The position numbers and the translations under genes are program-made. 16,327 nucleotides of DNA, taken from the NCBI GenBank assembly GCA_017883345.1, contig JADGNT010000016.1:1-16327 (forward strand), read 5' to 3'. How positions within the stretch are numbered: the first letter of the stretch is position 1; each line of letters begins with the position of its first letter. Below are positions 118 to 10,555 of the stretch, piece after piece. The notes below the pieces were generated by a model. The model saw nothing but the letters and a program-made list of their open reading frames with translations. It had not been told where the DNA came from and did no database searches. Origin of the DNA: Candidatus Solibacter sp. Lineage in GTDB: Bacteria; Acidobacteriota; Terriglobia; Bryobacterales; Bryobacteraceae.

Positions 118-906
118 CTACCAACTGGGGGTCTTGCGCGCCAGGCGGTGGGCCACCAAGTCGTAGACAATCGGGTTGAACACCAGGCCGAGGTGCGTTG
201 CCGAAACTTCGAAATCGACTTCGGGATTGCCGGTCCGGCAGACGCGCCAGTCTACGATTCCATCGGACTTGGTGTAGATGGCGGTCTCAAAGACGGATTT
301 CGGCAATTTGACCACCAGCGATTCCAGAAAACTGCAGGTGCAACTGGCCGTGTAGCACGCCGGCAACACATTGTTACCGTGACGTTCCAGAATCTGCCCG
401 CGCACCATTTGGACGGCGCGGAGTATGGAATGGTGCACCGAAATACCCCGGAACGGCGACCCCATGGTGATCACCGAAGCGATGCGGCCGGGCATCTGGG
501 AGGCCACCGCGCGGGCGATGACGCCTCCCAGGCTATGCCCCACCAGGTGGATCTTCTTACCGGTCTCCTTGTAGGCCTTCTGGATGGTCGCTTCCAGCTT
601 ATGCTTGATCAGCAGATTCGGGCACTCGGCATTCATGCCGATTCCCGAAAAGTAAGCCTTGTACCCGATCCGGTTGATCCAGGAGCGGAACTCCGTCAAA
701 TACAGATCGGTCAGCAGGAAGCCTGGAATGACGACTACCGCCGATCCATCTCCCGGCGGTATGCCGAAACCCCAATACACGGGGGACAGGCGCAGGTAGA
801 CCATCTCGATGCCGACCAACATCTCCTGCCAGATGGGCAGGGGAACGGCTTCGTCTGGTTTGCGGACCTCGGAGGGTTTACTGGTGCCGGAGCGGCGGGC
901 GCCCAT
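118..906 (-). CDS. Alpha/beta-hydrolase (lipase/esterase-like)
   Basis: A 262-residue protein with an alpha/beta-hydrolase fold. It shows an oxyanion-side segment VVVIPGF (57-63), a nucleophile elbow GHSLGG with Ser125, a likely acid Asp215 in SDGIVDW, and His238 in the C-terminal SATHLG. The triad order and spacing fit lipases and esterases of about 260 residues. No signal peptide is evident, so it should be cytoplasmic. It lies 38 nt downstream of the phasin-like gene on the same strand, so the two are probably co-transcribed. That placement suggests, but does not prove, action on PHA granules or their oligomers, or on a lipid. The start is uncertain: the first ATG has only a distant AGGG, and Met30 or Met36 are alternatives. 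There is no lipobox. The substrate is unknown. Confidence 0.85.
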   Translation of the reverse strand: MGARRSGTSKPSEVRKPDEAVPLPIWQEMLVGIEMVYLRLSPVYWGFGIPPGDGSAVVVIPGFLLTDLYLTEFRSWINRIGYKAYFSGIGMNAECPNLLIKHKLEATIQKAYKETGKKIHLVGHSLGGVIARAVASQMPGRIASVITMGSPFRGISVHHSILRAVQMVRGQILERHGNNVLPACYTASCTCSFLESLVVKLPKSVFETAIYTKSDGIVDWRVCRTGNPEVDFEVSATHLGLVFNPIVYDLVAHRLARKTPSW

Positions 907-944: not shown

Positions 945-1871
945 TCACGTGGTGGCGGGAACGGGCTTGCGCCGGGCGGCGGCGGGGCGCTTCCGGGCCG
1001 GTTTCGGGGGGGCCTGCGCCGCCTGCGCTTTGGGCGCTTCGCGCGGCGGCTTGACGATCACGTTGAGCAAGTCCTGTTCGGATTCAAACAAGCCCTCGAT
1101 GGTATGCTTGGCCAATTCCCCCAGGGTCTCGGCCGGAAGCGGGTTCATGGCGCCGATGGCTTCGCGGGCCGTCTTCACGTTCACCTTGAGTTGCTGGGTG
1201 GCCACGTCGAGCAGTTTCTTCTGGGCATCGATGTAGGCCTCGGCGCTCTGCCGCGCCAACTCGGTCAATTCGGTCTTCTTGGACGCCGCGTGGGCCTTGC
1301 CGTTGGTTTCCTTGCCGGTGGCATGGGCGGTTTCCTCCGCCAAGACGTCCAGGAACTTCTTCTGGCTGCGCACGAAGGTTTCCATGCTCTCGCGCGCCAG
1401 GGCGGTCAACTGAATGCCTCCAAACGGCTCGCCGCTCTTGGTGGCATCGATCCACTCATCGGCCTGCCGCGCCGCCAGGGTCAGGAAATGCTGGTGCATG
1501 CCGATGACCGTATCGACACCGCGGCTGAACAGATCTGTCAGAGCGGCAACGGGCGCCGGTCCGCCAATGCGTTCCTTCACCGCGGTAGTGAGGATTTCGT
1601 TCTCGCGCTGCGCCAGGTTCAACAGCACGCGCTGCGCGGCGATGAAGTTCGAAATGCCCTCGCCGGCCATTTCGGTGGCCGCCGTGCCCGCAATGTGGCG
1701 TGCCTCGGTCAGCCGCCCCTGGAAGGCACTGATTGTGTGGGCGTTTTGGCGCATCACCAGATCCAGCAGGATCCGCTGAGAGGCGAAGAAGCTTTCAGTT
1801 CCCTGCTTCAGCCAGCCCGCCAACATGGATATGGAGGAAGGCTCGCGAGCCGGAACGGTTTTCTCTGGCAT
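945..1871 (-). CDS. Phasin-like granule protein, six repeats plus basic tail
   Basis: A 308-residue, largely helical protein. The start is the ATG at 1869-1871, which has an AAAAAGGAG ribosome site 8 nt upstream; an upstream in-frame ATG lacks one. A ten-residue core recurs six times with 44-48-residue spacing: FFASQRILLD (28), FIAAQRVLLN (76), VIGMHQHFLT (122), FVRSQKKFLD (166), YIDAQKKLLD (213) and LFESEQDLLN (261). Most copies are preceded by an amphipathic L-x-x-L-A/F segment. Residues 276-308 form a Pro/Ala/Lys/Arg-rich, probably disordered tail. Phasins coat PHA granules through amphipathic helices, and some (PhaF of Pseudomonas) carry a basic DNA-binding tail. Divergence from phaR, with a PhaR-type operator in the promoter, supports a phasin role. 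Family membership is inferred from features and context, not from a search. Confidence 0.78.
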   Translation of the reverse strand: MPEKTVPAREPSSISMLAGWLKQGTESFFASQRILLDLVMRQNAHTISAFQGRLTEARHIAGTAATEMAGEGISNFIAAQRVLLNLAQRENEILTTAVKERIGGPAPVAALTDLFSRGVDTVIGMHQHFLTLAARQADEWIDATKSGEPFGGIQLTALARESMETFVRSQKKFLDVLAEETAHATGKETNGKAHAASKKTELTELARQSAEAYIDAQKKLLDVATQQLKVNVKTAREAIGAMNPLPAETLGELAKHTIEGLFESEQDLLNVIVKPPREAPKAQAAQAPPKPARKRPAAARRKPVPATT

Positions 1872-1887
1872 GAAAATTACTCCTTTT

Positions 1888-1902
1888 TGCTGCAATGCAG
1901 CA
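1888..1902. promoter_or_regulatory. Predicted PhaR operator (CTGC-N3-GCAG palindrome)
   Basis: A perfect palindrome, TGCTGCAATGCAGCA, with 7-bp arms (1888-1894 and 1896-1902) around one central base. Inside it is CTGC-AAT-GCAG (1890-1900). As I recall, this is the CTGC-N3-GCAG form described for PhaR binding in Rhodobacter, and TGC-rich sites are known in Paracoccus. It would span about +4 to +18 of the predicted phasin transcript, between the -10 box and the ribosome site, a classical repression position. GCAG/GCAG and CTGC half-sites also occur at 1959-1967 and 1979-1982, just before phaR, and could serve autoregulation. Confidence 0.72.
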
Positions 1903-1911
1903 TATACCTTC

Positions 1912-1941
1912 AATATAGACCTAAAGGCCTTTTTATGTCAA
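1912..1941 (-). promoter_or_regulatory. Sigma70-type promoter of the phasin-like gene
   Basis: Read on the minus strand, a perfect TTGACA (1936-1941) is followed after 18 nt by TATATT (1912-1917). Predicted transcription starts near 1905 and gives a leader of about 34 nt. The spacer contains a perfect 10-bp palindrome, AAAGGCCTTT (1923-1932), which might be a second regulator site. This is one of the closest matches to consensus in the window, as expected for an abundant granule protein held off by a repressor. Confidence 0.75.
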
Positions 1942-1995: not shown

Positions 1996-2484
1996 GTGCT
2001 GATCAGAAAATACCCCAACCGCCGCCTTTACAACACATCCTCCCGAGCTTACGTAAACTTGAACGATCTGGCGGGGCTGATCCGGCAAGGGGAAGAGATT
2101 CAGGTGGTTGACGCCAAGACCGGCGAGGATCTCACCCGGGTGGTGCTGACCCAGATCATCGTGGAAGATGCCAAGGATGCGCCCACCGGGCTGCCGCTCG
2201 AACTGCTGCGCCAGTTGATCATGGCGAGCGACCGGGCCGGCCAGGAATTCATTATGTGGTATCTGAAATCGGCTTTCGATACCTACGAAAAAGTACAGGA
2301 TGCGGTGCAAAACCGGCTGAAGGATGTGCGTTCGGCCGCGCTCTCGCCGCTCAACCTGATGAAAAGCCTGCTCACCCCTCCACCGGGCCCGAAGGCGGAG
2401 GATGAACTGGAGCAACTGCGGCGGCGCGTGGCGGAACTGGAACAGCGCCAGCAAAAACCGAGAAAAACAAATGGCCGCCGATAA
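1996..2484 (+). CDS. phaR: Polyhydroxyalkanoate synthesis regulator PhaR
   Basis: A 162-residue protein starting at GTG; an in-frame stop 9 nt upstream fixes the start, and the ribosome site is weak. Residues 3-25 (IRKYPNRRLYNTSSRAYVNL) are the signature of the PHA accumulation regulator DNA-binding domain. DLTRVVLTQIIVED (45-58) and a second helical region, LRQLIMASDRAGQEF, follow. The C-terminus is a short coiled coil (EDELEQLRRRVAELEQRQQ) ending in a basic segment. In known systems PhaR represses phasin genes and itself, and is titrated off DNA by nascent PHA granules. The divergent phasin-like gene with a matching palindrome fits this. Its last codons and TAA lie inside an intergenic repeat that begins at 2473. 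Confidence 0.93.
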   Translation: MLIRKYPNRRLYNTSSRAYVNLNDLAGLIRQGEEIQVVDAKTGEDLTRVVLTQIIVEDAKDAPTGLPLELLRQLIMASDRAGQEFIMWYLKSAFDTYEKVQDAVQNRLKDVRSAALSPLNLMKSLLTPPPGPKAEDELEQLRRRVAELEQRQQKPRKTNGRR

Positions 2485-2547: not shown

Positions 2548-2568
2548 CAAAATGATTTGAGGAGTGCG

Positions 2569-4143
2569 ATGGGATTGTCGTTCTTGGCCGGAATCGATCC
2601 GGGGCCGCTCGCATTATGGGCAAGCCTGTCTGCCGGCGGCGATTCGGCCGGCCGCATCTCCACGGTGGAGGCCGCGCTCAAAGGCCGGCGCGGCGCCTAC
2701 TGGCGGGGCGAAATCGGCAAGTGGATCGGCCGCCTGGTTCCGGTCGAAATCCTGGTCCCCGATTCCGCCCAGCGATGGCGTCCCCTGGTTCGGGACGCTT
2801 TCCAATTCGTTTTCGAGCGCCTCTCGGACCGGCGGCTGGCCACCAAGGTGGTGCAGCAATTCGAACTTTCCGCCGACACGGCGCCGGAGCAACGCCTGCT
2901 GCGCCTGGTCAATAAGATGCCGGGCTTGCAGAAGGTGGGGCAGGTGCTGGCGCGCAACCGCCGCCTGGCGCCGAAGCTGCGGCGCGCCCTCTCGGAGTTA
3001 GAAAACGGCATGTCGGACGTGACCCTGGAGGAGGTCCGGGGCCTGATCCAGGAGCGATTGGGGCAGCGGCTGACCGCCTACGCCGTCGAACTGGCACCCG
3101 CCATCCTCTCCGAAGCCAGCGTCAGCACGGTCATCCGCTTCACCTGGAATCAGCCCGGACGGGAGCGCGAACAGGGAGTGTTTAAAGTCCTCAAGCCCTA
3201 CGTGCCGGAGTGCTTCGGCGAAGACATGACGCTGCTCCAGGACCTGGGAGAATTCCTCACTTCCCCCGAACGCGGCTATGGATTCGCCATCCACGACGTG
3301 AAGGATATGCTTGCCGAGGTGCTGCTGCTGCTGGCTCACGAGCTGGATTTCCGGCGCGAGCAGGCCACCCTGTTGGAAGCCGTGAAGATGTATCGCGCCA
3401 GCATCGGAATTCGCGTCCCCCGCCTGATTGAGCCGCTGTGCACCAGCGACATCACCGCGATGAGCGCGGAGGCGGGCGTGAAAGTGACCGAGGCATTCCC
3501 GCGCTCGCCCGTCCGCCGCGCCCGGGTGGCCGAACAATTGATCGAAGCGCTGGTGGCCGTTCCGCTCTTTTCGCGCGAGGAGGACGCCATTTTCCACGCC
3601 GACCCGCATGCCGGAAACCTGCTGTACGACGAGACCAACCGCGAACTCGTGGTGCTCGACTGGGCCCTGGCCGAGAGGCTGAGCCTCGAATCCCGGCGCC
3701 AGCTCGTGCTGCTGTCGGTGATGATGACGCTGCGCAGCCCCGATGGCGTCCGCCAGGCAATCCGCGATCTCAGCCTCAGCGCCGACCGGCGGAATCGCGC
3801 GCGGCTCGGGGTGATCGATGGCTGCGTCAAACGGTTTTTCGACGAGATGTCCCCCGACGCCTCCCCGGGCACGCTGGACGCGATGCGGCTGCTGGACCGG
3901 ATCGCTCTCGAAGGCGTACACTTTCCGCCGCCCCTGTTCCTGTTCCGCAAGATCGTGCTGACGTTGGATGGCGTGCTCTACGATGTCGCCGGTCCCGGCG
4001 TGCGCATCGACGAGGTGATCGCCCGCGAGTTCCTGACGCGCTGCGCCGCCAGCCTGGGCGTATTTCACGCCCCTCTAGAATGGAAGGATTTCGCCGCCAT
4101 CGAGTGGAACGCGTTGCTCTATCCAGTCCGGAGACTTGGGTAA
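2569..4143 (+). CDS. ABC1/UbiB-family atypical protein kinase-like ATPase
   Basis: A 524-residue protein of the ABC1/ADCK/UbiB superfamily, whose members are mostly tied to isoprenoid-quinone or lipid metabolism. Visible motifs are the KxGQ motif KVGQ (122-125), the ATP-site Lys206 in VFKVLKP, the ELDF segment (258-261), the catalytic loop HADPHAGN (343-350) and the metal-binding Asp364. Two deviations stand out. The usual LDFG motif reads LDWA (363-366), and the Ala-rich loop is replaced by SEASVST (181-187). No C-terminal membrane helices are obvious. I chose the ATG at 2569, with GAGGAG 4 nt upstream; an in-frame TTG at 2557 overlaps that site. It follows phaR on the same strand across a repeat. 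The substrate is unknown, and the HMG-CoA reductase next door is only a weak hint towards isoprenoids. Confidence 0.88.
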   Translation: MGLSFLAGIDPGPLALWASLSAGGDSAGRISTVEAALKGRRGAYWRGEIGKWIGRLVPVEILVPDSAQRWRPLVRDAFQFVFERLSDRRLATKVVQQFELSADTAPEQRLLRLVNKMPGLQKVGQVLARNRRLAPKLRRALSELENGMSDVTLEEVRGLIQERLGQRLTAYAVELAPAILSEASVSTVIRFTWNQPGREREQGVFKVLKPYVPECFGEDMTLLQDLGEFLTSPERGYGFAIHDVKDMLAEVLLLLAHELDFRREQATLLEAVKMYRASIGIRVPRLIEPLCTSDITAMSAEAGVKVTEAFPRSPVRRARVAEQLIEALVAVPLFSREEDAIFHADPHAGNLLYDETNRELVVLDWALAERLSLESRRQLVLLSVMMTLRSPDGVRQAIRDLSLSADRRNRARLGVIDGCVKRFFDEMSPDASPGTLDAMRLLDRIALEGVHFPPPLFLFRKIVLTLDGVLYDVAGPGVRIDEVIAREFLTRCAASLGVFHAPLEWKDFAAIEWNALLYPVRRLG

Positions 4144-4270: not shown

Positions 4271-5809
4271 CTACCGGTTCCGCCCGTGCTTCTCGTGGCT
4301 GGAGACCCAGTCGGAAGCCGAAATCGCCGCCCCGAGCGAAATCTCGCCGGCCAACGCCACCCCGCCGACAATCTCCGCCAGCCGCTTGACCTTGTCGCGG
4401 CCGTAGCATTGCAGAATCTCCAGGCACTCGCGCTGCGTGGCGAGGCCCGTCCCGCCGCCGTAGGTGGCCACGATCAGGGAGGGAATCGTCAGCGAAACAT
4501 ACAGGTCGCCCTGGCTGGTCAGCTCTGTGTACAGAACTGCCGCCGAGGATTCGGCCACATTGGCCGCGTCCTGCCCGGTGGCGATGAACATGGCCGCGAT
4601 CCCGTTGGCCGATTGGCCGCCGTTGTTGTTGGCCCCCGACAGGAGAGCCCCCACATTGGCCACGCCGTAGTGGTACGTGAGCTTCTCCGGCTGCACCCGC
4701 AGATGGCGGATCAGGACTTCGCGGCGGATGACCGCTTCCGCGGTGACCCGCTTGCCGCGCGTGCGCAGCCGGTTGATGTCGGAAGCCTTCTTGTCCGTGG
4801 CGAAGTTCGATTCCAGGTAGAAGTTGACGACGCCCGGGTGGTGATCCAGAATCCACTGGCAAGCCGCCAGTGTCGCGCGCCCCACCATGTTCTGTCCGGC
4901 GGCGTCCCCGGTGGAGAAGTTAAAGCGCAGATAAACGAACTTGCTGGCGAGGAATGTGTCGATATACTGCAGCTTGGCCACCGACGAGGTAGCTTCGGCT
5001 TGCTGGCGGATGGCCGCCAGATTGGCTTGCACCCAGAGCGCAAAATCGCGGCCGGCGCGGGCATCCTGGAAGATGAAGGCCGGCGCCCGCTGCATGGCGT
5101 CGCCCACCACGGTTACCTTCACGCCGCCACAAAGGTTCAGCACTTTCATGCCGCGGTTGTAGGATGCCACCAGCGTGCCTTCGGAGGTCGCCAGCGGAAT
5201 CAGGAAGTCGCCTTGCGCGTGCTCACCGCACACGTGCAGCGGGCCGGCGAGGCCGATGGGAACTTGCGCCACCCCGACGAAATTCTCGCAGTTGCCCTTG
5301 GCCGCATGCGGATCGAGCGAATGGTGAACCACGTGCTTTAACCGAACGCCGGTTTCCTTTTCGATGAGCGCGCGGCGCCGGCCGATGATCTCAGGGCTGT
5401 AATCGTCGTCGTCGGCGCGCGGAATCGAGTGCGCACCTTGTCCGTCTTCGGCAACGGCATCCTCGGCGTGCAGCTTCAGTTTTCCAAACGGGCGGGTATC
5501 GAACGCAAGCTCGATCTGGTGGCTGGTTGGGCGCAAGGCCTGGCCGCCCACGTAAACCTTTACCGTGCAGCGCAATGGAAAGGAAATCGGGTGGGCCGCG
5601 CTGATCTCGAATGGGGCCAGCCCCCGGCCGTCTTCCAGGTCGAGGCGCACATGATCCATGGCCACCGGCTGCCCGTCGATCGCGATGCCTGAAATGCCGA
5701 TGACTTCCGCGTCCGCCAGCCGGTTCTTGATGGCGAACTCGACGCCGCCATCGGTGTTCTTCAGGCTGCCCGCCGTGTAAAGCGAGTTGAGCATGGCTGT
5801 AGGGATCAT
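4271..5809 (-). CDS. hmgA: HMG-CoA reductase with extra N-terminal domain
   Basis: A 512-residue protein. HMG-CoA reductase reduces HMG-CoA to mevalonate, committing carbon to isoprenoids. The catalytic region spans about 135-512 and looks class I. It has ENFVGVAQVPIGLAGPL (175-191), catalytic Glu210 in ATSEGTLVAS, the GDAAGQNM substrate/cofactor loop (301-308), Lys340 in TDKKAS, Asp414 in ATGQDAANV, GGGTGLATQ (451-459) and a C-terminal His505 in SSH. All four catalytic residues are therefore present. Two features are odd: about 125 residues of soluble, beta-strand-like sequence at the N-terminus instead of a membrane anchor, and SGANNNGGQSANG (391-403) where class I enzymes have a GGFNAHA-like segment. 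GAGGG lies 9 nt before the chosen ATG; Met6 is an alternative. It runs divergently from the beta-barrel gene. NADPH use is expected but not shown. Confidence 0.9.
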   Translation of the reverse strand: MIPTAMLNSLYTAGSLKNTDGGVEFAIKNRLADAEVIGISGIAIDGQPVAMDHVRLDLEDGRGLAPFEISAAHPISFPLRCTVKVYVGGQALRPTSHQIELAFDTRPFGKLKLHAEDAVAEDGQGAHSIPRADDDDYSPEIIGRRRALIEKETGVRLKHVVHHSLDPHAAKGNCENFVGVAQVPIGLAGPLHVCGEHAQGDFLIPLATSEGTLVASYNRGMKVLNLCGGVKVTVVGDAMQRAPAFIFQDARAGRDFALWVQANLAAIRQQAEATSSVAKLQYIDTFLASKFVYLRFNFSTGDAAGQNMVGRATLAACQWILDHHPGVVNFYLESNFATDKKASDINRLRTRGKRVTAEAVIRREVLIRHLRVQPEKLTYHYGVANVGALLSGANNNGGQSANGIAAMFIATGQDAANVAESSAAVLYTELTSQGDLYVSLTIPSLIVATYGGGTGLATQRECLEILQCYGRDKVKRLAEIVGGVALAGEISLGAAISASDWVSSHEKHGRNR

Positions 5810-6761: not shown

Positions 6762-8420
6762 TCACGGAGCGTCGTTCCACTCCGTTTCCGCGGCGGGCCG
6801 GATGTAGCTCATCGCCCGCTCCGTGAGCGCGCAGATGGTCAGGCTGGGGTTAACCCCCAGGTTGGCCGCGATCACGGAGCCGTCGCAGACGTACAGGTTC
6901 CGATAACCGAACAGACGATTCCGCGAATCCACCACGCCGACCTCCGGCGCGACGGCCATCGGGCACCCCCCTAGTATGTGCGCCGTGCCCGGCACGTCGA
7001 AGAGGATCTCCGTTACCATGCTCATGGGTGTTCCGCCGACCGCTTGCGCTACCTTGCGCGCGAATTCGTTGGCCTGCGGGATGAAGGTGGGGATGCGCCG
7101 CCCCTGGCTGCGCAGCACTCGCCGGAACGGCCAGAACCACGGGCGTCCCAACCGCATCTCGATATGACCGTCCAGGGTCTGCATGCAGAGCAGGATGAGG
7201 GACTCGCGCGCCCAGCCAAACGGGTGCAGGCTGCGCAGGGTCCGGATGGGATGCCGCAAAAGCGAGCTCGCCAGCACCCACAGCCAGAGCAGGATGCGTT
7301 TCCGGCCGGGTTCCCCGCCCGTCAGCACGGTCGCCAGCAGCCCCATGGCGTCCGACCCCGCCGGGTAGCGCGTGGCCTCGATGTGCGTGTATTGATCCAG
7401 GTAGAAGCCCGAACCGATCGCAATCCCCTGCGACAAGTCCTCCCGGCTACCGGGCACGCGCACGCCGATCAGCGACTCGCAATTGGTGCGCACCCGGTTG
7501 CCCAGTTGCCCGCTGATCCCCGGCAGCGAGCCCTTTTCTTTCAGCCGGAAGAGCAGGTCCAGCGTGCCCAGCGCCGAGGCCGCGAATACCACGCCGCCGC
7601 AGGTGAAGCGGCGCCGGCCCCCAGGCATGACCGTGGAGGGAACCGTGAACACCTCGTAGCCTTTGCTTCCATCGGGGCTTCCATCGGGGCTTCCATCGGG
7701 GCTTCCATCGGGACTGCCGCCCAGAGGCCGTACATCTACCACCTTGGTTTCGGCGAATACCTGCGCCCCCGCCTTCTCCGCCAGGTAGAGGTAATTCTGG
7801 TCCAGCGAGTTCTTAGCGCGATAACGGCACCCCATCATGCAGCCGCCGCAGCCGATGCAACTGGCGCGCTCCGGTCCCTCGCCGCCGAAGTAGGGGTCGG
7901 GATAGGTAAGGCCCGGGGGTTCACCCTCCGGCCCTTCGAAGACGGCAACTCTGGTGCGATAGAAGGTCTCCCCTGTCCCGTGCGCTGCCGCCGCCCGCTG
8001 GAGGATGTGGTCCGCCGGACCCATGATCCGGTTTTCCGCCACGCCCAACATGCGCACCGCGGTTTCGTAGTGCCGCGGCATCTCCGCTTTCCAGTCCGCC
8101 AGACCCGCCCAAGATCCGTTGTCCCAGATCGCCTCGGGCGGCACCAACAGCGTGTTGGCGTAGGTGATGGACCCGCCACCCACGGCACAGCCATGCATAA
8201 TCAGAACGTGGCGGAAGGGCTCGATGTTGAAGAACCCGCGCAACCCCAGGCCCGGCCGCCAGATCCAGCGCCAAAATTTCCAATTCGTCGTGGGCAGGTT
8301 CTCCGGCGTCCACCGGCAGCCCATTTCCATCACGCCGACCCGGTAGCCCTTCTCGGTGAGCCGGTGGGCGGAGACACTGCCGCCGAATCCGGAGCCGATC
8401 ACGATGAAATCGAAGTCCAT
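6762..8420 (-). CDS. GMC-family oxidoreductase, cholesterol-oxidase-like
   Basis: A 552-residue FAD enzyme. The start is the ATG at 8418-8420, which precedes MDFDFIVIGSGFGG, the Rossmann FAD motif (GSGFGG 9-14); an in-frame extension upstream lies over another gene and is unlikely. It also has GGGSITYANTL (81-91), typical of GMC flavin binding, and a C-terminal HILGGCPM (481-488) with CDGSVIAANLGVNPSLTI (512-529), the GMC active-site and flavin-binding end. CIGCGGCMMGC (188-198) gives four cysteines, Cys188/191/194/198, in a ferredoxin-like CX2CX2CX3C pattern. I recall this in the ChoD-type sterol oxidase group. Residues 235-252 are a (GSPD)4 linker. It overlaps the upstream START-like gene by one base, so the two are coupled and may act on the same hydrophobic substrate. 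The true substrate is not established. Confidence 0.87.
   Translation of the reverse strand: MDFDFIVIGSGFGGSVSAHRLTEKGYRVGVMEMGCRWTPENLPTTNWKFWRWIWRPGLGLRGFFNIEPFRHVLIMHGCAVGGGSITYANTLLVPPEAIWDNGSWAGLADWKAEMPRHYETAVRMLGVAENRIMGPADHILQRAAAAHGTGETFYRTRVAVFEGPEGEPPGLTYPDPYFGGEGPERASCIGCGGCMMGCRYRAKNSLDQNYLYLAEKAGAQVFAETKVVDVRPLGGSPDGSPDGSPDGSPDGSKGYEVFTVPSTVMPGGRRRFTCGGVVFAASALGTLDLLFRLKEKGSLPGISGQLGNRVRTNCESLIGVRVPGSREDLSQGIAIGSGFYLDQYTHIEATRYPAGSDAMGLLATVLTGGEPGRKRILLWLWVLASSLLRHPIRTLRSLHPFGWARESLILLCMQTLDGHIEMRLGRPWFWPFRRVLRSQGRRIPTFIPQANEFARKVAQAVGGTPMSMVTEILFDVPGTAHILGGCPMAVAPEVGVVDSRNRLFGYRNLYVCDGSVIAANLGVNPSLTICALTERAMSYIRPAAETEWNDAP
7665..7712. repeat. Four perfect 12-bp tandem repeats inside the GMC gene
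   Basis: The unit GCTTCCATCGGG occurs four times without change (48 bp) and encodes (SPDG)4 on the minus strand, between the Cys-rich segment and the second FAD-fold half. As 12 is a multiple of 3, copy-number changes would vary the linker length without a frameshift. Confidence 0.9.
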
Positions 8421-9992: not shown

Positions 9993-10310
9993 ATGACCGT
10001 CACCGTCAACAACAAAACGCCCCTCGTGGTCCCTCCTGCCATTCGCCGGCAGGCCGGTCTTAAGAGTGGCCAAGAGATCGAGTTCAAGGTCTCCGGCGGT
10101 GTCATCAGCATTCATCCCAAACTCCCAACCGCGGACGGCGAATACACTGCCGAGCAGCGCCGCCTGATCGATGCCCAACTTGCCGACGGGCTGGCCGACG
10201 TCGACGCCGGGCGAGTGCACGGCCCTTTTTCCACCCACAAAGAATTCATCGCGTCGCTCCACAAGGAAGCCAAGAAGTTGAGCCGCAACAAGACCAAGCG
10301 CTCGGCGTAA
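9993..10310 (+). CDS. AbrB/MazE-fold antitoxin of a type II TA pair
   Basis: A 105-residue protein. Residues 1-42 (MTVTVNNKTPLVVPPAIRRQ, then AGLKSGQEIEFKVSGGVISI) match the swapped-hairpin AbrB/SpoVT DNA-binding fold, with the typical V-P-x-x-I-R-R and G-L-K-x-G-Q-E elements. Residues 49-97 are helical and hold VHGPFSTHKEFIASLHKEAK, resembling the toxin-binding tail seen in antitoxins paired with RelE-like toxins. The C-terminus is strongly basic. It should neutralise the following toxin and repress the operon through the palindrome at 9966-9980. Its TAA shares a base with the toxin ATG (TAATG), typical of TA operons. Confidence 0.85.
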   Translation: MTVTVNNKTPLVVPPAIRRQAGLKSGQEIEFKVSGGVISIHPKLPTADGEYTAEQRRLIDAQLADGLADVDAGRVHGPFSTHKEFIASLHKEAKKLSRNKTKRSA

Positions 10311-10555
10311 TGAAGCTCCTCCGAACCACCCATTTCGAGCGAAACTACGTCAGGGCACCACCGCAAATCCAGCGTGCCTTCGACAAACAGTCGGCGCTGC
10401 TCCTGCAGAATCTCCATCACCCGTCGCTGCGCGCCAAGAAATACGACGAACGGCGGAACCTCTGGCAGGCACGCGTCAACCAGGACTGGCGCTTCTATTT
10501 CCTGATCCAGAACGACGCGTACCTGATCGTGGACATCATTCCCCACCCGAAATAG
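10310..10555 (+). CDS. RelE/ParE-superfamily toxin
   Basis: An 81-residue protein of normal toxin size. The layout fits the RelE/ParE fold: an N-terminal strand (KLLRTTHFE), helices holding FDKQSALLLQNLHHPSL, then the strands LWQARVNQDWRFYFLIQNDAYLIVDIIPH. Candidate active-site residues are Arg55, Arg61 and His79, which would suit a ribosome-dependent or free mRNA endonuclease. The fold alone does not exclude a gyrase-type (ParE) target. Translation is probably coupled to the antitoxin through TAATG, with no separate ribosome site. The stop lies just before the palindrome at 10559, and fadE is convergent. Confidence 0.82.
   Translation: MKLLRTTHFERNYVRAPPQIQRAFDKQSALLLQNLHHPSLRAKKYDERRNLWQARVNQDWRFYFLIQNDAYLIVDIIPHPK

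Follow-up and report, generated by a model that had tools for sequence, protein, structure and literature searches.

A six-repeat phasin-like protein under a PhaR-type operator as a probable coat of neutral-lipid droplets in Acidobacteriota

RESULTS

Gene arrangement around the phasin-like gene

The window (the whole stretch of 16,327 nucleotides analyzed here) is contig C77 of a Candidatus Solibacter assembly of 5.4 Mb, which consists of 890 contigs and is 79% complete. It carries on the minus strand a reading frame (945..1871) that starts with an ATG at 1871, ends with a stop codon at 945-947, and encodes a phasin-like, putative coat protein of 308 amino acids with six repeats, designated P0001; the assignment is based on the ORF, self-comparison, a unit profile, and homologues. 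The named homologues come from Candidatus Solibacter, Bryobacterales, Terriglobia, and other acidobacteria. The one from G162, an assembly that is 98% complete, is 84% identical to P0001, and that of Solibacter usitatus Ellin6076 (P0103) is 78% identical. Gene arrangements were compared over 37 named loci from 36 carrier genomes (L100 and L113 are both in G284). The flanks are limited, and the neighbor counts over these loci are lower bounds because several of them lie on short contigs.

Divergent from the phasin gene, on the plus strand, is the gene of a PhaR-like regulator (1996..2484), identified by a profile match to PHB_acc_N (PF07879; 95.7 bits, cut-off 25); with the equivalog model TIGR01848 it scored 101.6 bits, below the cut-off of 109.45. 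PhaR is present in 35 of the 37 named loci and lies no more than 263 bp from the phasin gene in 33 of them, which supports a link between the protein and PhaR. On the minus strand, the phasin gene is followed after 38 bp by the gene of an alpha/beta hydrolase with a GHSLGG box (118..906; profile match and alignment), which is a candidate oil or wax lipase judging from its sequence. The hydrolase was found in 30 of the 37 named loci, the GHSLG box is kept in all 37 hydrolases aligned, and in G108 and G089 the hydrolase gene adjoins that of WS/DGAT. Beyond PhaR, a profile match on the plus strand (2557..4143) revealed an ABC1/UbiB-type atypical kinase, which recurs in 18 of the 37 loci. A gene for HMG-CoA reductase (4271-5809; PF00368, 411.7 bits) adjoins the kinase gene, and matches to HMG-CoA reductase were also seen in the PhaR loci of G015, G076, and G054. 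WS/DGAT is encoded in the flank of 18 of the 37 named loci, at a distance of 44 bp in the nearest case, and PhaC is encoded near the six-repeat gene in none of the 37.

Repeats, predicted structure, and family membership of P0001

An earlier sequence-only reading of this DNA had described six ten-residue cores recurring every 44 to 48 residues. The cores were found to start at residues 28, 76, 122, 166, 213, and 261, with spacings of 48, 46, 44, 47, and 48, and their recurrence is supported both by self-comparison, in which the best diagonals (47, 137, 48, 138, and 185 residues) were equaled by none of 300 shuffles, and by the unit profile. The ten-residue core, however, is only the center of a longer unit of about 39 residues. 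The unit profile, built from the long homologues, places the six units of P0001, all on the minus strand, at residues 14-52 (1716..1832), 62-100 (1572..1688), 108-146 (1434..1550), 152-190 (1302..1418), 199-237 (1161..1277), and 247-287 (1011..1133), the last being the weakest. When 43 long sequences were scanned with it, a survey that the sequence-only reading had called for, every intact one had six units; the three with fewer were L117 (four units, cut off at a contig end), L098 (five units, with a split reading frame), and the second paralogue of L097 (five units). Two to four significant units each were found in eight short proteins, of which seven come from PhaC loci and one, encoded near WS/DGAT, comes from G009. 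The second L097 paralogue (L097:4762-5529) shares its locus with another phasin relative and has a CTGCATTGCAG site of its own at 4757.

Two AlphaFold2 runs, with 16 and 62 sequences, gave models of very low confidence (mean pLDDT 38.4 and 38.7), in which one long helix is predicted for each repeat and none for the tail. With a turn of 98.2 degrees, one of three turn angles tried, five of the six helices were more amphipathic than shuffled sequences (p ≤0.0045), and the second helix gave p 0.08. A sequence search of solved structures with P0001 returned one match at chance level (E 0.53).

Phasins are usually shorter than P0001. The protein matched none of the curated phasin families (PF05597, PF09361, PF09650, and others), the only matches at E 1 being four unrelated ones below their cut-offs. 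Among 16 members of A1 searched at E 0.1, two matched PF09361 (best E 0.013) and three matched the PhaE model PF09712 (best E 2.3e-4). P0001 is, however, related to proteins of G195 and G084 whose genes lie between those of PhaR and PhaC (1e-16 and 7e-12 by phmmer with a small database; 6.9e-15 and 2.4e-10 as per-genome E values). Its description as a phasin-like modular protein is supported. The short phasin of G195 itself matched PF09361 with an E value of only 0.022.

The basic tail

The last 36 residues of P0001 (273-308; 948..1055, minus strand) form a Lys/Arg/Pro/Ala-rich basic tail, which is defined by its sequence and by the composition of the homologues and has no helix in the low-confidence AlphaFold2 models. 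The basic tail reported in the sequence-only reading is thus present, and it could bind DNA. Among the 120 homologues listed, 91% have a net charge of at least +5 over the last 36 residues (median +8), as do 35 of the 43 long sequences, and the seven short PHA-linked phasins have C-terminal charges of −2 to +3. The tail is absent from the phasin of G215 (L055 and L120, which are one genome), and the short phasin relative of G009 (L046) is tail-less as well (+1). The WS/DGAT of G009 (L046:8610-10220) has a histone-like Lys/Ala-rich end with a charge of +19 over 60 residues.

The fact that most homologues have a basic tail might suggest a histone-like nucleoid protein whose amphipathic repeats serve only to oligomerize, with no role in lipid storage. 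We consider this highly improbable. The G215 phasin lacks the tail, yet keeps six repeats and lies 0.65 kb from WS/DGAT; the histone-like tail of G009 sits on WS/DGAT and not on the phasin relative; and the family is syntenic with lipid-storage genes. A DNA tether remains a plausible role for the tail of P0001 on the evidence of its composition, although not one constant across the family, because the G215 phasin and the short G009 protein do without it.

Operator and promoter of the phasin gene

A 15-bp palindrome, TGCTGCRNTGCAGCA, which reads TGCTGCATTGCAGCA on the minus strand, lies at 1888..1902, just upstream of the start codon of P0001, and is predicted from its sequence to be a PhaR-type operator. 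It has the form of the PhaR sites published, in the parts of those articles available, for R. sphaeroides (CTGCNNNGCAG; PMC12542648) and R. eutropha (YTKNTGCRNYGCANMAR; PMC12849132). A predicted CTGCNNNGCAG-type operator is present at the promoter of the phasin gene, the putative PhaR target. It is the sole exact match in the 5.4-Mb assembly, for which about 0.1 matches are expected by chance from base composition. A CTGC-N3-GCAG site occurs at the equivalent position in 36 of the 37 named loci, and the exception, L117, starts inside the gene. The operator is preceded on the minus strand by a sigma-70-type promoter-like pair (1912..1941), in which TTGACA (1936-1941) and TATATT (1912-1917) are separated by 18 bp with 11 of 12 matches to the consensus, and which stops 9 bp before the operator.

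This arrangement is conserved. The exact operator box was found near the annotated start in 43 of 46 loci examined (all but L056, L091, and L117). Each of the 43 boxes is preceded by a promoter-like pair with at least 9 of 12 matches, which ends 5 to 11 bp before it. The pairs score 10.1 on average, compared with 6.7 for shuffled sequences, and the −35-like box is TTGACA in 41 of the 43 loci and TTGACT in two rows from one genome. Such a placement is compatible with repression at the predicted start of transcription.

The exact operator was also searched for in 60 genomes, in which a reversed control pattern occurred in 3. It was present in 25 of the 26 genomes with a phasin relative, which include the PhaC-type genomes G084 and G195 and also G216, where the sole match is at the PHA locus. 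It was found in 5 of the 14 WS/DGAT genomes with no long phasin detected, namely in five of five genomes of g68, a distant genus. Each of these five has a single exact operator, immediately upstream of WS/DGAT; in G089 the gene row at that operator is WS/DGAT, hydrolase, and a second WS/DGAT. It was further found in 5 of 20 phasin-less genomes, and in three of these (all but G061 and G147) the four sites present all fall within long open frames. No operator match was found at the WS/DGAT gene of the assembly studied here (contig C258). Some carriers have further exact operators, on C487 of G270, beside a 276-aa frame with no Pfam match, and on C32 and C148 of G302, the last beside a stress-protein gene. 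In L159 (G302) the site is upstream of a gene for a universal stress protein, and in L157 (G270) it is upstream of the 276-aa frame.

Partner synthase: WS/DGAT versus PhaC

In the assembly studied here (G000, 79% complete) no PhaC was detected by PF07167 or TIGR01836. It contains one WS/DGAT, on contig C258, which scored 353.5 bits with TIGR02946 (cut-off 309.95), matched PF03007 and PF06974, and keeps the HHxxxDG motif as HHALADG. Its gene row also contains a short-chain dehydrogenase gene and a patatin-like gene, and an aldehyde dehydrogenase gene adjoins. No overlap was found between the ends of C258 and C77, and the two contigs remain unjoined. In G162, WS/DGAT is encoded 7.2 kb from the phasin gene and is followed by two frames that match the frames of the C258 row in length; no PhaC was found in this 98% complete genome.

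The distribution of the synthases was compared in an order-level sample (n = 120) and a phylum sample (n = 149), in which the single-sequence searches may miss distant phasins. Relatives of P0001 occur in nine genomes of the order sample. PhaC above 300 bits was found only in G195 and G216, both carriers, and WS/DGAT above the cut-off was found in exactly the other seven carriers and in no non-carrier. The association of WS/DGAT with carriers (7/9 versus 0/111 in non-carriers) gave a Fisher p of 6e-10, kinship of the genomes being ignored. In G216 the six-repeat gene is accompanied by PhaR and ubiB, no WS/DGAT was found, and PhaC is on another contig. The sole other genome of the window's genus in this sample, G241, had no phasin, WS/DGAT, or PhaC. 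In the phylum sample, four of the five carriers (G000, G073, G121, and G009) have WS/DGAT without PhaC, and G084, which has a short phasin, has PhaC without WS/DGAT. A short phasin does not always point to PHA, because the relative in G009, a tail-less protein of 199 aa with four units, is encoded near WS/DGAT. PhaR was found in 31 of the 149 genomes, including all 18 with WS/DGAT and all 10 with PhaC_N above the cut-off, and 10 of the 31 have neither synthase.

Among the 36 named-carrier genomes, 32 have WS/DGAT (all but G269, G281, G285, and G290), and the five with PhaC above 300 bits have both synthases. Six of the loci lie on contigs equal in length to the phasin contigs of order-sample genomes (L084/G162, L090/G260, L092/G245, L107/G258, L109/G186, and L120/G215), so that the two sets of counts are not independent for these six. 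The PhaC calls rest on 320 to 351 bits, because no match reached the TIGR01836 cut-off of 365.3 bits (best 351). Weaker matches were left uncounted: WS/DGAT below the cut-off in G193 (order sample) and G110 (phylum sample), and PhaC at 19 to 27 bits in 11 further order-sample genomes and in the carriers G280 and G303, whose matches scored 20 to 27 bits.

The sequence-only reading had assigned P0001 to PHA granules. A PHA granule coat was rejected as the main reading, since PhaC does not follow the gene, being undetected in the assembly and in all 37 loci, and the family tracks WS/DGAT instead. It may be asked whether P0001 is nevertheless an ordinary PHA phasin whose PhaC lies in the missing part of the 79% complete assembly. 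The adjoining PhaR, the homology to the short phasins of G084 and G195, whose genes sit between those of PhaR and PhaC, and the presence of PhaC in five of the 36 named carriers and in G216 would all agree with this. However, the complement of G162, with its closely similar protein, the lack of PhaC above 300 bits in 31 of the 36 carriers, and the absence of PhaC from the surroundings of every six-repeat gene make it quite unlikely. It had also been said that homologues located away from PHA genes would speak against a granule protein. They do lie away from PhaC, yet they lie beside PhaR, and we therefore suggest a storage-granule coat for another lipid. Because the gene accompanies WS/DGAT, P0001 is most likely a coat of oil droplets.

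P0001 might instead be a scaffold or activator of WS/DGAT, or coat some other hydrophobic inclusion or membrane patch (isoprenoid, for example), rather than being the main coat of oil droplets. The HMG-CoA reductase and the UbiB-type kinase encoded close by would suit such a role, as would the four named carriers and G216 in which WS/DGAT was not found. The conserved promoter-like pair and PhaR-type operator, however, are the regulation expected for an abundant granule protein, and relatives of P0001 accompany WS/DGAT in 32 of 36 genomes, so that we regard this explanation as unlikely.

Genomes with both synthases and the PhaR tree

In the five genomes with both synthases (G302, G286, G301, G299, and G283), PhaC and the six-repeat gene are on different contigs, and the six-repeat gene is 1.4 to 5.9 kb from WS/DGAT in all five. 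The PhaC contigs of G302, G286, G301, and G299 share the gene row PhaR, short tail-less phasin (186 to 221 aa), and PhaC; on that of G283, which is only 5.7 kb long, no phasin was found. In four of the five, then, PhaC is accompanied by a short phasin of its own, which further argues against P0001 being an ordinary PHA phasin. The frame that separates the short phasin gene from that of PhaC in G195 and G286 is similar to the end of PhaE (PF09712; E 1.3e-4 and 5.4e-4, both below the cut-off).

A tree of 50 PhaR rows places seven PhaRs from PHA loci of Terriglobia-type genomes in one group (support 100/93), to which the PhaR of the G216 six-repeat locus is sister (95/92). With the exception of G216, this group is separate from the PhaRs of oil loci. 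The PHA-locus PhaRs of other families (G051, G063, and G108) fall outside it, and the G009 PhaR joins two of these. The tree requires at least three changes of label, and 11 of its forks are open. Judged from sequence, some genomes hold two parallel modules, because the PHA-locus and WS/DGAT-locus sets sit on separate contigs and their PhaRs are mostly separate; G216 and G009 blur the split. The PHA loci L121, L122, and L124 of these genomes have an operator-like site with TGTTGC in place of TGCTGC, whereas L125 (G299) keeps TGCTGC. This difference might keep the two PhaR modules apart.

DISCUSSION

Proposed function and regulation of P0001

The repeats noticed in the sequence-only reading were confirmed, also by the internal comparison it had proposed, and comparative genomics has moved their interpretation from PHA granules to neutral-lipid droplets. 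We consider it probable that P0001 is the surface coat of droplets of triacylglycerol and/or wax ester made by WS/DGAT, and that it evolved from PHA phasins. This proposal is founded on sequence, namely the repeats, the tail, the gene neighborhood, the co-occurrence with WS/DGAT, and the conservation of operator and promoter, from which we infer droplet binding, DNA binding, titration of PhaR, and hydrolase activity. Its six amphipathic helical repeats would be located on the surface of the droplet, which the basic tail could hold to DNA. The divergently encoded PhaR would bind the palindrome at the transcription start of the phasin gene and shut it off. As oil droplets arise, PhaR would become titrated onto them, allowing the coat protein to be made. 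The neighboring hydrolase may mobilize the oil. As to the origin of the system, we lean toward a duplication of the phasin, PhaR, and operator module in Acidobacteriota and its re-targeting to oil or wax droplets, with PhaR sensing neutral lipid and some species running both modules.

Comparison with known storage systems

P0001 resembles the PHA phasins PhaP, PhaF, and PhaI with their PhaR in that its gene adjoins that of PhaR and has a PhaR-type palindrome at its promoter, and in its predicted helical sequence. It differs from them in its length, its six clear repeats, and the lack of a match to a curated phasin family, and in that no PhaC was detected in its assembly, where the partners are WS/DGAT and a lipase-like hydrolase. 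The basic tail of most family members recalls PhaF, which, in the portion of the article available, is described as having a Lys/Ala/Pro-rich C-terminal DNA-binding domain with eight AAKP-like repeats (PMC5658603); the tail of P0001 is without such repeats.

The closest functional parallel to the proposed droplet role of P0001 and PhaR is MLDS and MLDSR of Rhodococcus jostii. According to the available sections of that report, MLDS is a major droplet protein that binds DNA, and the regulator MLDSR, which binds to a palindrome, is recruited to the droplets (PMC5504291). However, the two systems belong to different phyla, and the acidobacterial regulator is PhaR (PF07879), in contrast to MLDSR with its GNT(T/A)GCTNNTGCTANC operator (PMC5504291). 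Unlike MLDS/MLDSR, the parts of the P0001 system look, from their sequences, as if they were derived from the PHA world.

WS/DGAT genes clustered with fatty-acid genes have been described in sediment bacteria, where one scaffold, in the Pseudomonadota section, also carries a putative phasin gene, and WS/DGAT homologues are reported in Acidobacteriota (PMC10351704). The likeness extends to WS/DGAT and that one phasin gene; the portion of the study available describes no link to PhaR or its operator, no exchange of PhaC for WS/DGAT, and no six-repeat protein (PMC10351704). Among the papers listed in literature searches, judged from their titles and abstract openings, none connects WS/DGAT droplets in Acidobacteriota with PhaR or a phasin.

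Oil droplets and plastic granules of bacteria are generally regarded as distinct systems whose coats differ. In the genomes compared here, both appear to be served by one coat family and one regulator family. The two kinds of locus occur together in four genomes, which offers a clean test of what the coat protein and its sensor recognize. The P0001 system may also open the carbon storage of Acidobacteriota to genetic study, a phylum whose neutral-lipid storage was called unexplored in 2023, in the available text of that study (PMC10351704).

Other features of the window

Positions 8-53, next to the hydrolase gene at the end of the contig, match the Acido-Lenti-1 RNA (RF01687; 50.8 bits, cut-off 37). 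An AbrB-like gene (TIGR01439, below the cut-off) is followed by an 81-aa frame with no family match (9993-10555), and the two might form a toxin-antitoxin pair. Within a GMC oxidoreductase gene, a 12-bp unit is repeated four times perfectly (7665-7712), giving the protein an SPDG run.
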